From: Siansivirga zeaxanthinifaciens CC-SAMT-1
Lineage (GTDB): Bacteria; Bacteroidota; Bacteroidia; Flavobacteriales; Flavobacteriaceae
Length of the DNA stretch: 64,000 nucleotides
Assembly: GCF_000941055.1 (NCBI RefSeq)
Contig: NZ_CP007202.1
Location: 1-64,000 of the forward strand
Direction: 5' to 3'
The notes under the pieces: generated by a model
Seen by the model: the letters and a program-made list of their open reading frames with translations, nothing else
The model's database searches: none
Told to the model about the DNA's origin: nothing
Shown: piece after piece, positions 3,141 to 15,061 of the stretch
Layout of the letters: the number at the start of each line of letters is the position of its first letter
Numbering within the stretch: position 1 is the first letter of the stretch
Position numbers and translations under genes: made by a program

Positions 3141-3899
3141 TTAATATTCGATACCATTTACATAAACGGGAATAACATCAATAATTGGCGCAATCTCAAA
3201 TCCCAAAAAGCCGTTAATATCTTCATAAGTTACTAAGTCGTTGTAAACCTTTAAATATTGATCCGATAATGGTTTAAATGACCAATGCCATTTTTCCTCA
3301 TTGTAACCAGTCCTACCATTTTCTTTTGAAGTGTAAGGTTGGAAAAATCCAAATTTATGAGCATTTTTACTAAGCCAATCATACTCTTTTTTACCTTTTC
3401 CCATAGCGAAATAAGAATTATTCAAATTATTTATATCAATATCAGTACCCCAATGATGTCTTGAAGTACTTGGCATTGAACTATATTTTAAAATAAGTAG
3501 TGCATTTTTAATGCTATCAGGCATATTATTTTGTCTCCATTTTCTTTCCCAAATTCGTTTTTGTTCGGTAAAATTACGGGTACCAGAAACTATTTTAAAA
3601 GAGATACCGTCTTTCTTTGCTGCAGTCGCCATATTTACAAAAGAATCTAATACTACTTTTTGAATGTAGACATTTTTAAAGCTATAGTTTGAAGGTACCT
3701 TTACGAATGCAGTATCTTTTCTATAATTGAATTTACCCAATAATTTAAATCTTTCGATACACTTTACTAAAGGTACCTCTGGTGTAGTGCTTAGATTATT
3801 AACTTTAGTCTTATTCTCAACTATTGCATTATCCTTCTTCTTACAAGAAGAAACTATAACAATTAAAAAAAAGTATATTAAAATCCTAAGTTGCGACAT
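3141..3899 (-). CDS. M15-family D,D-peptidase lipoprotein (VanY/DacB-like)
   Basis: This 252-residue protein starts with a lipoprotein signal (MSQLRILIYFFLIVIVSSCK; lipid-modified Cys at about 19). The mature part has the VanY/M15B layout: SGTRNFTEQKRIW, then SRHHWGTDIDI supplying zinc-ligand His and Asp, and near the C-terminus EEKWHWSF supplying the last zinc His. The family cleaves D-Ala-D-Ala or related peptide bonds in peptidoglycan, so it probably acts in the periplasm, anchored to a membrane. Its ATG directly follows the TAA of the upstream gene (3900), so the two are probably one transcript. That neighbour has a membrane segment and an SH3-like domain, consistent with a shared cell-wall role, which is inference. 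Confidence 0.85.
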   Translation of the reverse strand: MSQLRILIYFFLIVIVSSCKKKDNAIVENKTKVNNLSTTPEVPLVKCIERFKLLGKFNYRKDTAFVKVPSNYSFKNVYIQKVVLDSFVNMATAAKKDGISFKIVSGTRNFTEQKRIWERKWRQNNMPDSIKNALLILKYSSMPSTSRHHWGTDIDINNLNNSYFAMGKGKKEYDWLSKNAHKFGFFQPYTSKENGRTGYNEEKWHWSFKPLSDQYLKVYNDLVTYEDINGFLGFEIAPIIDVIPVYVNGIEY

Positions 3900-5636
3900 T
3901 TAATTTAATTTTACACAAAATTCAGAAAAGATCCAACCATCTATTTCTTTAAGATAATACCAGTTGCTATAACTTATTTCAACATCTATTTTTTTAACTC
4001 GAACCTTATTGATTGTTTTATCCATATTCACTACTTCTGCAGAATAAGTATAATCATCAATACTCTGTACGTTATTTAATTTGAAATTCTTTGGTTTTTC
4101 AACCTTCTCTTCACTTTGAATATCTTTAAGAATCATTTTTTTGTTTAATAAGTATATTGGTTTTTCAGATTTATACTCCTCAGAAACAGTGTAAAATTCG
4201 TTTTCTGAAACTTTACCAATAACACTTCCATTTATAGGTTCTTTACGAATGTTAATATTATTTTTACCATCTTTTATTCTAATATTGAAGACATTAAATG
4301 TATTCTGATTTGAAGTAATATCTTTAACATTCTCCTTATCAACTAACTTATTTTTATCAATGTATTCTTTCTCCCATTCATTTTTAATATCATCTACTGT
4401 CATTTCTTGAGTTACAGAATTCTTGGATGTTAAAATGAAAAATACCGCCGCCGATATTATTAATATACTTGCAATAACAACAGGCAAAACCCATTTTCTT
4501 TTGGTTTTTTTAGAAGCGCTGGCAACTGGTTTTGGTTTTTCTTGAGTGTCTCCATTTATTTCTGCACTAACAACATCTTCATCTCTTGATTCAATAGCAT
4601 CAATTTTAGAATTTGTTTTTATTTTTTTTTCAATATTTCGACTTTCAGTTTTTCCTTTTTGAATCTCAATTTTTTTCTTCTTTTCTTCTTTCTTTTTTTT
4701 ATTGGTTATAAATGAGAGAATTTCATCTTTTCTGAAAGTGGAATCGAACAAAACGTTATAAAACCCGACCAAATTTATAATATCACCATATGACAGCTTT
4801 GATTCGCTTACAACACCCCTCTCGCCTTGAAGCCTATATTCAACAGTCTTTGAATTAATCATTTTGGTAAGCAAAGAAATATCTGTCTCCAAGTAAAGTA
4901 ATTCACTAGTCCCTTCTTGATAGTTAATGTTTTTACCTATGTCCATTGTTTCGTCATCATCAAAAAGAAAGGTTATCTTTCCGTCCTTTAGAGCATTAAC
5001 TTTAAATTCATTCCCACTCAAATTAATTTGCAATAAACGTATTTTTAAAATAAAAATATCTTGCTCTGATTTTTTTCTATAAATTAAACTTAAGTATAAA
5101 CTAAAATTACTTCTCTGTAATCTGGCAGTCAAGTTCTCTAATTCGGTATTGAACGAGCTTATGCCTGCTTGATTATCAGCCAAATCAGTAAGTGTCTTGT
5201 TATCTAAACTTAATGATTTTGATTCGTATTCTTCAACTTTTGTGAACTTATCAGTTCCATATTTATCAACAAATAAAGACTTTATTTCATCTTCTGTAAC
5301 ATTATAATCATCTCCCGACTTCACATCATTGTTATTTTCCCCATTTCCATCGATTAAACTTACTAAATAGTTGTTTATCTTATCTTTTGAGCTTTCAACC
5401 ATATCTTCTCCAACATCAAATAAATCTCCATCTATATCTCCTTTATAATAAAAACGTAATTCATCATATTCTTCTTCAATCAAATTAAACTGTAAAATTG
5501 ATTCATCATCTCCAATAAATTCATGAGTATTTCCCTCTTCATCAACAACATGAAGAAATTTCCACTGAGTATCAGGGTGAATTATTTTGCAAATTTCGAG
5601 GAGTTCTTCTTTACTAAGTTTACTGTATTTATTCAT
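3900..5636 (-). CDS. Unknown membrane protein with C-terminal SH3-like domain; paralogue of the protein at 7179-8357
   Basis: This is a 578-residue protein. Residues 1 to about 310 match the 392-residue protein upstream (both begin MNKYSKL, then EICKIIHPD, EYDELRFY, and FYNxLFDxTFxKDE near residue 292). A Lys/Glu-rich, low-complexity linker follows (about 310-380), then one membrane segment (about 382-402, WVLPVVIASILIISAAVFFI). The C-terminal part has NINIRKEPINGSVIGKVSEN and ends WYYLKEIDGWIFSEFCVK, as in bacterial SH3 (SH3b) domains but with a long insert. The shared N-terminal domain is not one I recognise. With no signal peptide, the N-terminal part should be cytoplasmic and the SH3-like part periplasmic. 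It abuts the M15 peptidase gene without a gap. Confidence 0.75.
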   Translation of the reverse strand: MNKYSKLSKEELLEICKIIHPDTQWKFLHVVDEEGNTHEFIGDDESILQFNLIEEEYDELRFYYKGDIDGDLFDVGEDMVESSKDKINNYLVSLIDGNGENNNDVKSGDDYNVTEDEIKSLFVDKYGTDKFTKVEEYESKSLSLDNKTLTDLADNQAGISSFNTELENLTARLQRSNFSLYLSLIYRKKSEQDIFILKIRLLQINLSGNEFKVNALKDGKITFLFDDDETMDIGKNINYQEGTSELLYLETDISLLTKMINSKTVEYRLQGERGVVSESKLSYGDIINLVGFYNVLFDSTFRKDEILSFITNKKKKEEKKKKIEIQKGKTESRNIEKKIKTNSKIDAIESRDEDVVSAEINGDTQEKPKPVASASKKTKRKWVLPVVIASILIISAAVFFILTSKNSVTQEMTVDDIKNEWEKEYIDKNKLVDKENVKDITSNQNTFNVFNIRIKDGKNNINIRKEPINGSVIGKVSENEFYTVSEEYKSEKPIYLLNKKMILKDIQSEEKVEKPKNFKLNNVQSIDDYTYSAEVVNMDKTINKVRVKKIDVEISYSNWYYLKEIDGWIFSEFCVKLN

Positions 5637-5902
5637 AATTACCTGTATTTTTTAATATTTAATCTTATCGTGGACTATTGAAATATTAAAGCATTTTAGT
5701 TTTTAAATTTGATAAATTATTTGTTTTTCGTTCTATAATTTTAAATGATTAATATTCTATTTTTTTTAAACAAAGCTTAAGTAGTGATATTTTACGTTTA
5801 TGCCCAATTATAGATTGTCTACTCATCTTCCTAATTTAAGAATTTGATGTGTATTTTGCATTTCTAAATTTCTTTAACTTTATCTTAGAATAATGGTTTA
5901 CA

Positions 5903-7198
5903 TTACCTTAATGACTTTGTGTTTTTATTAACTTTATATAGTTGATATGCACTAATTGCGTTAATCATATTTCCGAATGCAACAGTTGAATTTAAGTTTT
6001 CCAATCCATTACTTAAATTAGTGTTCAAGTCATTAAAATTTGAATCTAACGTATGATTCAGAGAGTTAAAACCGTTAGAAATAGATTCTTCAATATTAAT
6101 TAAGCCGTTCACAACCTCGTTAAGATTTTGGTTTATTTGATTTATACCTGCAACAACCTTTTCAAGCTGACTTTCTATGATAGTTAGTTTTTTAACAATA
6201 TCTACTTTCATTGTTTTTAATTCCTCTTTTATATCAGTCAATGTTGTAGTTAGGTCTTTTTCAAACTTATTTTTGAAGATACCTAATTCATCAAATTCTT
6301 CATATAGTTCATAGAAAACCACATAGTTACCTTCCAAAAGTCCCACTAACATATTTAAAGAATAGTAGTAAACAATATTATAGCTATTAACTTGCTCAAT
6401 AATTAATGTAGATAAGCTGTCTATAGTTTTAAATACTTTCACATCTTTATTAAGGGTTTCAACAGTCTTAATTATTTGTTGATGTTTTATATTTAAAAAA
6501 TTATGAATTTTTAAAAAGTCCAAGACATATCTTTTATCCGCCTCCACAATCTTATTTTGATTAGATATAATTAACTGTTTTATTTTACTTGGTCTTTCAA
6601 CTAAATCTTCACTATTCCTTAAAGATGCCTCTTTAAATTTTTCTTGAACATATTCTGCTATATCATTAATATCAATGGTGGTATGAGATTCATTAATTAT
6701 CTTAATTAATTCTTTAAATCGTTTTTCTTCTAGTTCATCAACATGATTATCTGAATTTATTAAGTCTTCAGAAATTTTCATTAATAATTCCTTAACCAGA
6801 TTAACTGTTTTTTTATTGGCGTGATTTGTTAGAAATCCAACAGAATTAAAATTATTTTGAGGGATAATACTTGATCTCGTAATTGATAAAAATTGCGATT
6901 TCTTATCATCACTTAAACTTTTCCATTGACCTATAAATCTTGTATAATTTATGCCATTATCAAATTTAATTTCATTAATCATATCATTAATACATGTTAC
7001 AAATAATGTTTCGTATTCAAAGTTTTTATAGTCGAAATAAAAATGATAAAGAAGAAATCCTAAATCATTTTTTAAAAGTTTTGTAAAAGCTAAAGTTGAA
7101 GAACTAGGCAATTCTTTATCAATTTGGGCAAATAACTCTTTTAAAATCCCACTATATTGATTTATTAAAACAGCTATTTTAGTTGTTGTTGGTATCAA
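5903..7198 (-). CDS. Unknown protein with C-terminal coiled coil
   Basis: I do not recognise this 431-residue protein. The first 270 residues are mostly helical-looking and charged with no catalytic motif seen. Residues 300-410 form a long amphipathic heptad-like stretch (IESQLEKVVAGINQINQNLN, then SNGFNSLNHTLDSNFNDLNT), likely a coiled coil. There is no signal peptide or clear membrane segment. The start is TTG at 7198, which overlaps the end of the upstream gene by 20 bases; no ATG follows until about residue 67, so the overlapping start and translational coupling are favoured. It lies between the two paralogous genes, suggesting one functional unit. A structural or tethering role is a guess. 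Confidence 0.6.
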   Translation of the reverse strand: MIPTTTKIAVLINQYSGILKELFAQIDKELPSSSTLAFTKLLKNDLGFLLYHFYFDYKNFEYETLFVTCINDMINEIKFDNGINYTRFIGQWKSLSDDKKSQFLSITRSSIIPQNNFNSVGFLTNHANKKTVNLVKELLMKISEDLINSDNHVDELEEKRFKELIKIINESHTTIDINDIAEYVQEKFKEASLRNSEDLVERPSKIKQLIISNQNKIVEADKRYVLDFLKIHNFLNIKHQQIIKTVETLNKDVKVFKTIDSLSTLIIEQVNSYNIVYYYSLNMLVGLLEGNYVVFYELYEEFDELGIFKNKFEKDLTTTLTDIKEELKTMKVDIVKKLTIIESQLEKVVAGINQINQNLNEVVNGLINIEESISNGFNSLNHTLDSNFNDLNTNLSNGLENLNSTVAFGNMINAISAYQLYKVNKNTKSLR

Positions 7199-8357
7199 TT
7201 TTCTTCTGTATTAATTTATGTATTGGTTTAATAAAAGAATTAAAACTTATTTTTCTTAAGGTTTCGCTTTTGTTTATTAAACTAGCGAAATAAGGTCCTA
7301 TTTGATAATAAAATTTAACAAAATTAAAACCAGCCTTGCTATTCAGTAAATACCTATCCCTATAAAGTCTGAAATCATTGACAATAGGATGATCTGGATC
7401 GTTCATAGTGGCTGTCACTACAAAACATTGACTAGAACTTTTAGTTTCTTTAGTCTCTTTTTGTTCTTTAGTCTCTTTTTTTGCTTTATCTTTTTTATTT
7501 TTGTTTTCTTTAATTTTCTGAAAGTCAATTCTTTTCTTTTTCTCCTTTTCCAAAAATGAGATAAGTTCATCTTTCATGAATGTATTATCAAATAATGCAT
7601 TATAAAATCCAATTAAGTTAATTTTATCAGTAAATGTTAATTTTGTCTCAGTTAAAATATTATCTGTATTCTCAACTCTTAATTTAATCTTCTTTGAATT
7701 AATAATTTTAATTAATAAATAAATATCTGTTTGCAAATAAAGTTCCCCTATTTTATGCTTTATTACTTTATCAACTTTAATTGTTTCGTTATCCTCAAAA
7801 AGGAAGATTATAGCTTCTGGTGTTGGTTCAACATGACCTATCATTAGAATAAAAATATCTTCGTTAGATTTTTTTTTATAAATCATATGGACGTCAGACA
7901 CATAATTTTCATAGTCTAATATTATTATTCTTGAACAGTATTTTTGTGATTTTGTAAACTCATCTCTTTCTCCACCATGTAAAAAAAATGATTTTATTTC
8001 CTCTTCCTTAGAATTCGAAAGCTCCTCTAACGAGTTCTTATTTTCAGTATCTTGACTTTTATTAATTAAGCTATGAAGATAATTATCTATCTTATCTTCA
8101 GAAAATTTCAATGTCTCTTCTCCAATTTCAAATAGTTTTCCATCAGCATAGTGTTTATAAAATCTTAATTCGTCATATTCACTTCTATGAATGTTAAATT
8201 GCATCATTGAACCGTCATTTCCCAAAAACTCATAGCAGTCATCGGAGCCCTTACCGTCATTATCTAGTACTTGATGAAATTCCCACTCGGCATCAGGATG
8301 AATTATTTTGCAAATTTCAAGAAATTCTAATTTATTAAGTTTACTGTATTTATTCAC
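7179..8357 (-). CDS. Unknown protein with C-terminal CFI-box domain; paralogue of the protein at 3900-5636
   Basis: This is a 392-residue protein. Its first 270 residues are homologous to the N-terminal domain of the 578-residue protein downstream. A highly charged linker (about 270-308, KENKNKKDKAKKETKEQKET) leads to a C-terminal module at 311-392: CFVVTATMNDPDHPIVNDFR, then LYRDRYLLNSKAGFNFVKFY, then YYQIGPYFASLI. This matches the CFI-box-CTERM pattern (C[FY][IV]ATA...LRxFRDxxLxxxxxGxxFxxxYYxxxPxxA), a widespread C-terminal domain of unknown function. The start is GTG at 8357, aligned exactly with the ATG of the paralogue. Near-identical DNA at the 5' ends (8299-8357 and 5575-5636) supports gene duplication. 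Confidence 0.7.
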   Translation of the reverse strand: MNKYSKLNKLEFLEICKIIHPDAEWEFHQVLDNDGKGSDDCYEFLGNDGSMMQFNIHRSEYDELRFYKHYADGKLFEIGEETLKFSEDKIDNYLHSLINKSQDTENKNSLEELSNSKEEEIKSFFLHGGERDEFTKSQKYCSRIIILDYENYVSDVHMIYKKKSNEDIFILMIGHVEPTPEAIIFLFEDNETIKVDKVIKHKIGELYLQTDIYLLIKIINSKKIKLRVENTDNILTETKLTFTDKINLIGFYNALFDNTFMKDELISFLEKEKKKRIDFQKIKENKNKKDKAKKETKEQKETKETKSSSQCFVVTATMNDPDHPIVNDFRLYRDRYLLNSKAGFNFVKFYYQIGPYFASLINKSETLRKISFNSFIKPIHKLIQKKIDTNNN

Positions 8358-13423: not shown

Positions 13424-13429
13424 TTGCAC

Positions 13430-15034
13430 ATGAACACACTTGAAAAATTTAAACAATTTGCTCCAAAGCAGCATTTACTGGGTCACAGTAAAAATGCTAT
13501 AATTTATACCCGTGTATCCACAAAGGAGCAAGCGGACACCAATACATCGCTTGAAACCCAGAAAAAGTATTGTGAGCACTATGCCAAGTCCAATGGGTAT
13601 AACATCGTAGGGTATTTTGGTGGGACTTACGAATCTGCCAAGAGCGATGAACGTAAAGAGTTCAAGAGGATGCTCAAGCATGTCAGGCAGAGTGGTTCGG
13701 TAGGCTATATCATTGTGTACTCCTACGACAGGTTCTCCAGAACTGGCAGCAGCGCCGCTCATATATCGCAGGAGCTATTTGAAAGGGGCATACAGGTAAA
13801 GGCGGTCACACAGGAAGTGGATACGACTTCCGCGGCGGGAAAGTTCCAGCAAAACATGTTCTTTATGTTCAGTCAATTCGACAACGAACTGAGAAGGGAT
13901 AAAACCATTACGGCTATGACCGATCTTTTACGTAAAGGGTACTGGTTATGGAGCCCGCCAATAGGCTATGTCAATAAAAAGAAATACCATAAGGCTGTAG
14001 ACTGGGAAATCGTGCCTTCCAAGAAAGGAAAACTGCTTAAAAAAGCGTTCGCATGGAAGACAAAAGGTATATATACCAATGTGGAGATCATTGATAAGCT
14101 CAAAGGTTTGGGAATGGCAATCAACGAGCGTAGGCTCAGTGAGGTATTCAAAAATCCGTTCTACTGCGGTGTACTTATCAGTAAAATGGTTCCTGGTGAA
14201 ATTATTGAAGGTAGACATGAGCCTCTTGTCTCTAAAGAAAATTTTCTGAAAATCAATTCCGTAGAGACTCATCATCCTAAACACCATAAATCGGAAAATG
14301 ACAAGCTTCCGTTAAAGCAATTTATTTATTGTGAACGTTGTAAACTTCCCCTAACAGGTTATCTTGTTAAGAAAAAGGGGCTTTATTATTATAAATGTAG
14401 AACTAAGGGATGTTCGTGTAATAAATCAGCAAAGGCTTTACATAAATCCTTTGAGGATAATTTGAATCTATATCAAGTAGATCCAAAATACAATGCTATT
14501 ATCAAAGAGGTCATGGCTTACTCCTATGATAACATCACAAAGGAGATAAGACAGCAGAGTGTAGCTATTAAGAAAAAGATTACCGAACTAAACGATAAAA
14601 TAGAATCGGTAGAGGAACGCTTTGCGCTTGGTGAGATTGATTCCGATATATACAAAAAATTTAAGGATAAATATGATGGCCAAAGAGTGGAACTACAATC
14701 CAAAATGGAGAATCCAGCTATTAATAGTTCGAACCTTGAGAAGGCTATCGAAAAAGCACTTGAATTATCCGCTTCGCTCCAGTATATATGGGTAAATGGC
14801 GATCTGAAACAAAAACAAAGACTCCAAAATTTAGTGTTTCCTGGTGGTTTGGGTTATGATAAGTCAAATGATAGAGTTCGAACCCCAAAGGTAAACGCTA
14901 TTTTTTCTGCAATACACTCATTATCAGGCAAAATAGAAAGAATAAAAAAAGGAGAACCGATTCCTGTGAATCAATTCTCCGATTTGGTGACCGCGAAGGG
15001 ATTCGAACCCCCAACCCTCAGAGCCGAAATCTGA
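13430..15034 (+). CDS. Large serine recombinase (integrase) at tRNA-Arg
   Basis: The protein has 534 residues from ATG 13430. The N-terminal resolvase domain contains IIYTRVSTKEQ with the catalytic serine (residue 30) and the arginine-rich YSYDRFSRTG. The Recombinase domain follows (GYWLWSPPIGYV), then a zinc-ribbon-like part (FIYCERCKLPLTGYLVKKKG with CxxC, then KCRTKGCSC) and a coiled coil (about 370-430). It would catalyse site-specific integration and excision. The last codons (DLVTAKGFEPPTLRAEI) are encoded by the 3' half of the tRNA-Arg gene on the opposite strand, so the frame crosses the attachment site. Such a GFEPxT tail is common in recombinases adjoining tRNA genes. This marks one end of an integrated element. 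Confidence 0.92.
   Translation: MNTLEKFKQFAPKQHLLGHSKNAIIYTRVSTKEQADTNTSLETQKKYCEHYAKSNGYNIVGYFGGTYESAKSDERKEFKRMLKHVRQSGSVGYIIVYSYDRFSRTGSSAAHISQELFERGIQVKAVTQEVDTTSAAGKFQQNMFFMFSQFDNELRRDKTITAMTDLLRKGYWLWSPPIGYVNKKKYHKAVDWEIVPSKKGKLLKKAFAWKTKGIYTNVEIIDKLKGLGMAINERRLSEVFKNPFYCGVLISKMVPGEIIEGRHEPLVSKENFLKINSVETHHPKHHKSENDKLPLKQFIYCERCKLPLTGYLVKKKGLYYYKCRTKGCSCNKSAKALHKSFEDNLNLYQVDPKYNAIIKEVMAYSYDNITKEIRQQSVAIKKKITELNDKIESVEERFALGEIDSDIYKKFKDKYDGQRVELQSKMENPAINSSNLEKAIEKALELSASLQYIWVNGDLKQKQRLQNLVFPGGLGYDKSNDRVRTPKVNAIFSAIHSLSGKIERIKKGEPIPVNQFSDLVTAKGFEPPTLRAEI
14944..14980 (-). terminator. Rho-independent terminator of tRNA-Arg, inside the recombinase frame
   Basis: On the minus strand GGAGAATTGATTC, a 4-base loop and GAATCGGTTCTCC form a stem interrupted by one two-base mismatch, followed by seven Ts. 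It lies 5 bases past the tRNA CCA end. It is also coding sequence (GEPIPVNQFSD) for the recombinase on the plus strand. Confidence 0.8.
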
Positions 15035-15061
15035 TATTCTATCCAATTGAACTACGCAGCC
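14985..15061 (-). tRNA. tRNA-Arg(UCG), with encoded CCA; integration site
   Basis: The minus strand from 15061 gives acceptor GGCTGCG, a D-arm, the anticodon arm TCAGA-TTTCGGC-TCTGA with anticodon TCG, the T-loop TTCGAAT, acceptor 3' strand CGCGGTC, discriminator A and CCA. The acceptor stem pairs with two G-T wobbles (2-71 and 4-69), and the T-stem also appears to use two. The recombinase frame and its terminator enter from the 3' side, so the 3' half is probably the attachment core. It lies about 30 bases after the yqeY-like gene and may be cotranscribed with it. Confidence 0.92.

Follow-up and report, generated by a model that had tools for sequence, protein, structure and literature searches.

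Four leftward genes lie near the start of the genome of Siansivirga zeaxanthinifaciens CC-SAMT-1, and the question that they raise is whether they work together or merely lie side by side. An earlier note, made from the letters alone, took them to be a coordinated, envelope-directed unit in which two proteins share an N-terminal domain. The window analysed here is the whole stretch of 64,000 nucleotides (bases 1-64000 of a genome of 3.30 Mb in a single contig, which gene content and relatives place in the Bacteroidota), and its genus is represented among the comparison genomes by this genome alone. The genes are given in their order of reading:

P0001, 7179..8357, minus strand: 392 aa, GTG start; orphan N-domain (~1-276), Lys-rich linker, CFI-box C-terminus
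P0003, 5903..7198, minus strand: 431 aa, TTG start; coiled-coil protein, member of a Flavobacteriales family by its C-terminal ~200 residues
Gap between P0003 and P0002, 5637..5902, no strand: 266 bases, non-coding
P0002, 3900..5636, minus strand: 578 aa; orphan N-domain (~1-317), TM helix (~383-403), SH3b-like tail (motif only)
P0004, 3141..3899, minus strand: 252 aa; predicted lipoprotein, VanY/M15B carboxypeptidase

Gene layout and genomic setting

The layout that had been described for these four leftward genes (3141-8357) is exact in coordinates and strands, as are the zero spacing between P0002 and P0004 (3899/3900) and the 20-base overlap of P0001 with P0003 (7179-7198), the latter provided that the TTG start of P0003 is correct. 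The non-coding gap of 266 bases, absent from that description, separates P0001/P0003 from P0002/P0004, so that the layout becomes one of two tight pairs with an N-domain gene first in each, and it disfavours the reading of the locus as a single transcript. The Bacteroidota promoter pattern was matched 4 times in the window (5.9 matches expected), a sigma-70 promoter scan gave background level only, and no transcription terminators were found in the scan.

Three features define the surroundings of the module:

Two-gene transposase, 1743-2881: IS3-type insertion sequence, apparently intact
Large serine recombinase, 13424..15034, plus strand: reads into tRNA-Arg; probable integration module of the region
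tRNA-Arg, 14985-15061, minus strand: beside the same gene in relatives

The G+C content of the module genes is 0.25-0.30, compared with 0.34-0.35 downstream of tRNA-Arg, and the module region is likely an integrated element; no left-end direct repeat of at least 13 bases was found within 20 kb. Near the contig start (215-1088) there are also 75-nt tandem repeats, with 8 copies in the main family, which possibly encode 25-residue repeats of a surface protein. The recombinase at tRNA-Arg, the nearby insertion sequence and the low G+C all favour ordinary accessory cargo, that is, unrelated genes gathered in a mobile-element region where one N-domain gene was duplicated locally and where the genes have no joint function. 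This is a serious possibility, against which stand the two tight pairs, each with an N-domain paralogue first and joined by zero spacing in one case and by a 20-base overlap in the other.

The duplicated N-terminal domain

P0001 and P0002 are similar from residue 1 (BLASTP 2e-68, 131/314 identical, 42%), and their shared N-terminal region (276 and 317 residues, respectively) shows 49% identity in a MAFFT alignment. A similarity so far above chance bears out the proposed common domain of ~270-310 residues, and it equally supports a duplication with differing C-terminal modules, a CFI-box in P0001 and a TM helix plus SH3b-like tail in P0002. The paralogues had also been said to share 5' DNA; this holds for 106 nt (81% identity) that stop at the start codon, but these are coding only, and no obvious DNA similarity was seen 5' of the start codons.

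The domain had not been recognised by the earlier reader, and family libraries do not recognise it either: no convincing match was found in Pfam, NCBIfam, PHROGs, PADLOC or the PDB sequences. Profile scans that covered 397 genomes at family, 395 at phylum and 395 at class level (overlapping sets, ~1,190 Bacteroidota genome scans) returned the window's own copies only, plus weak matches in five genomes. Two of these (G014 and G368) reach 16 bits in open frames of 966-969 aa. The other three, named from sequence as a DnaB-like helicase (G203), a B12-binding-like protein (G282) and a large secreted-like protein (G1252), were inspected and judged to be due to chance. Pattern scans of genome and viral contigs, which rely on exact short peptides and are blind to distant relatives, gave nothing; P0002 matched neither plasmids nor phages, and only the CFI-box of P0001 was matched in plasmids among the 20 matches listed. 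The absence of the N-domain elsewhere in the genomes scanned is a further point in favour of accessory cargo.

An AlphaFold model of P0002 alone reached a pLDDT of 32, too low for use, and a model of the N-domain built from the two sequences reached 67, with two subdomains: a first part (~1-100) predicted as helix-strands-helix and a second (~122-257) predicted as beta-rich with helices. A Foldseek search with a predicted model returned no PDB match at E ≤ 0.001, and one unnamed viral model at 8e-5 with a low TM-score. Residues 122-257 of the P0001 model resembled IalB from Bartonella (3dtd; Z 7.0, rmsd 4.1, 125 aligned), as well as a chain of the flagellar LPHT-ring entry 8z5n (Z 6.7), which we take to be MotY; because both Z values lie in the background range, reached also by models without a clear match, the likeness to IalB and the N-terminal part of MotY is a lead only.

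The partners in the two pairs

P0004 was proposed to be an M15 peptidase lipoprotein, and its sequence agrees: it matches Pfam VanY (PF02557) with 110.5 bits (6.8e-32; gathering score 25), aligns to solved D-Ala-D-Ala carboxypeptidases (5e-13), has the SxHxxGxxxD and ExxWH motifs intact (SRHHWGTDID and EEKWHW) and carries a lipoprotein-type signal. It is, judged by its sequence, a predicted VanY/M15B carboxypeptidase. A search of 99 relatives found orthologues with 47-59% identity in 13, mostly in other contexts and with varying neighbours, which fits accessory cargo; three of these loci have a common gene order that includes genes which, by their sequence, are lepB-like and wbqC-like. In one relative (G040, L082:6717-8451), the gene immediately upstream of the VanY orthologue overlaps it and codes for a lipoprotein with an SH3_3 domain (5.3e-10), indicating that SH3 and VanY are partnered in at least one case where the N-domain is missing; this recurrence speaks against the cargo reading. 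In another (G792), an SH3_3 protein is encoded near the VanY gene on the opposite strand, with further SH3b-like lipoproteins nearby. A second M15-like lipoprotein gene lies there beside an SH3b-like lipoprotein gene (L083:8397-9808), near the VanY orthologue.

The namesakes of the VanY family trim D-Ala-D-Ala precursors, and P0004 could thus be the sole working part of the locus, serving envelope maintenance or stem-peptide trimming that alters the tolerance of cell-wall-active compounds. We consider this very improbable, since VanY-like lipoproteins of the P0004 subfamily are widespread in relatives in housekeeping-like contexts, P0004 falls far below the cut-offs of the named vanY resistance models and the N-domain pair would be left unexplained.

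P0002 has one strong membrane segment (~383-403), preceded on its N-terminal side by a basic flank, KKTKRK, which under the positive-inside rule places the N-domain inside; we infer a topology with a cytoplasmic N-domain and a periplasmic tail. The tail contains SH3b-like motifs (NINIRKEP..SVIGKV and SNWYYLKEIDGWIF), and a long insertion separates INIRKEP..SVIGKV from WYYLKEIDGWIF. No SH3 family in Pfam matched the tail at E up to 10, and an ad hoc SH3 profile matched it weakly (4/2000 shuffles scored as high with the insertion removed, 48/2000 with it). Of the C-terminus originally described, the membrane segment therefore stands, but the SH3-like part is SH3b-like by motif only.

The other paralogue ends in a CFI-box, as proposed (NF041770, 60 bits against a curated cut-off of 40; 63.6 bits in the genome scan). 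A second CFI-box copy is found in the host genome at C1:1732748, encoded by a gene that abuts one for a signal-peptide/TM coiled-coil protein, and the two coiled-coil partners of CFI-box genes in this genome are not similar. The four-gene run around this copy (L049:3458-10425; C1:1727457-1734424, minus strand) also encodes a kinase-AAA+ fusion and an Hsp70-like protein, and resembles an accessory operon of the chaperone or conflict type. None of 30 relatives has a CFI-box; on an E. coli plasmid, the gene of a CFI-box protein stands behind three dynamin-family genes. These contexts (coiled-coil neighbours and dynamin-family genes) suggest a possible membrane-associated role. Among the papers searched, none uses the term 'CFI-box'.

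The C-terminal part (~200 residues) of P0003 aligns with a protein from another genome (G043; 31% identity, E 1.6e-16), and its family was found at 8 loci in other genome contigs, titled Flavobacteriales, Flavobacteriaceae, Crocinitomix, Aequorivita or Bacteroidetes MAGs. At all 8 loci the gene stands alone, being convergent with glmS in 5 of them, and no N-domain, VanY or CFI-box neighbours were found in the stretches read. An EF-hand-like loop (e.g. DKDGNGEVDVVE) precedes the coiled-coil module in the relatives with a readable upstream part, and relatives with this loop are repeatedly glmS-convergent (L013:8809-9984, L017:2224-3231, L018:7509-8615, L021:8065-9639 and L025:311-1297). P0003 shows no membrane segment by hydropathy and had no match in plasmids, nor did P0005, a relative of P0003, in phages. 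The N-terminus of P0003 was also considered as TerB-like, but this idea was dropped, as Pfam did not support it.

The solitary state of the P0003 relatives, an outcome of the kind that the earlier note had named, for the shared domain, as contrary to its proposal, tells against one coordinated unit and in favour of accessory cargo, and so does the fact that most VanY orthologues have other neighbours. The four-gene set was not found together in unrelated genomes where this was testable (for the coiled-coil and VanY partners). As for envelope direction, the overlapping SH3 lipoprotein and VanY genes of G040 lend some support for P0002 and P0004, but not for P0001 and P0003, in which neither a signal peptide nor a clear membrane helix was found and for which it would be conjecture.

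An anti-phage or abortive-infection module, with N-domain proteins that sense infection and membrane and peptidoglycan parts that either damage the envelope or prevent phages from entering, would suit the accessory setting by the recombinase, the sensor-like modular proteins with swapped C-termini and the host's second CFI-box gene in a kinase-AAA/Hsp70 operon. It is nonetheless unlikely, as none of the four proteins matched PADLOC at E up to 1, neither a nuclease nor any other toxin domain was found in the module and the module does not recur in other genomes.

Interpretation and comparison with known systems

We tentatively favour a peptidoglycan-trimming pair and a duplicated orphan domain that was re-used with a CFI-box/coiled-coil partner, all in an accessory region; plain accessory cargo follows closely. 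Under the favoured explanation, two neighbouring gene pairs, whose first genes are related by duplication, would lie in an accessory region. P0002 would sit in the inner membrane, with its N-domain in the cytoplasm and its SH3b-like tail in the periplasm, where the tail might bind peptidoglycan and present it to P0004, the lipoprotein carboxypeptidase that would take the terminal D-Ala off stem peptides. The duplicated N-domain could be a cytoplasmic docking or sensing module, and P0001, combining it with a CFI-box tail, would be made together with P0003, whose coiled coil may form a scaffold at the membrane. Any interaction between the pairs is likewise conjectural. An undescribed envelope system with two arms, in which the duplicated cytoplasmic domain links a peptidoglycan-trimming arm (TM/SH3b-like protein and VanY) to a CFI-box/coiled-coil scaffold arm, seems improbable.

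Should the pairs cooperate, the locus would exemplify how one inside-facing module, duplicated in place, is put to use again to bring in different envelope partners. The CFI-box, which is present at C-termini across several phyla, would then gain a testable partner. The firm gains are smaller, namely a solitary Flavobacteriales coiled-coil family and, in one relative, the pairing of an SH3 gene with VanY.

Among known proteins, P0004 resembles the VanY/M15B D,D-carboxypeptidases (PF02557) in its catalytic domain, motifs and lipoprotein-type signal; it differs in that its gene lies directly behind an N-domain/TM/SH3b-like gene, whereas most orthologues have other neighbours. The G040 pair is alike in that the gene directly upstream of VanY overlaps it and encodes an envelope protein that ends in an SH3 domain, but the partner there is a lipoprotein, not TM-anchored, lacks the N-domain and has a strong SH3 match where P0002 has a motif only. 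P0003 aligns over its C-terminal ~200 residues with the Flavobacteriales coiled-coil family (e.g. L013:8809-9984), although the N-termini differ, P0003 lacks the EF-hand-like loop that most relatives carry and those relatives stand alone. P0001, finally, shares with the CFI-box-CTERM proteins (NF041770) a C-terminal domain that scores over the curated cut-off, and its gene overlaps a coiled-coil gene much as the host's second copy abuts one; in contrast to the proteins at 1.73 Mb and in the E. coli dynamin operon, it is fused to an orphan N-domain.
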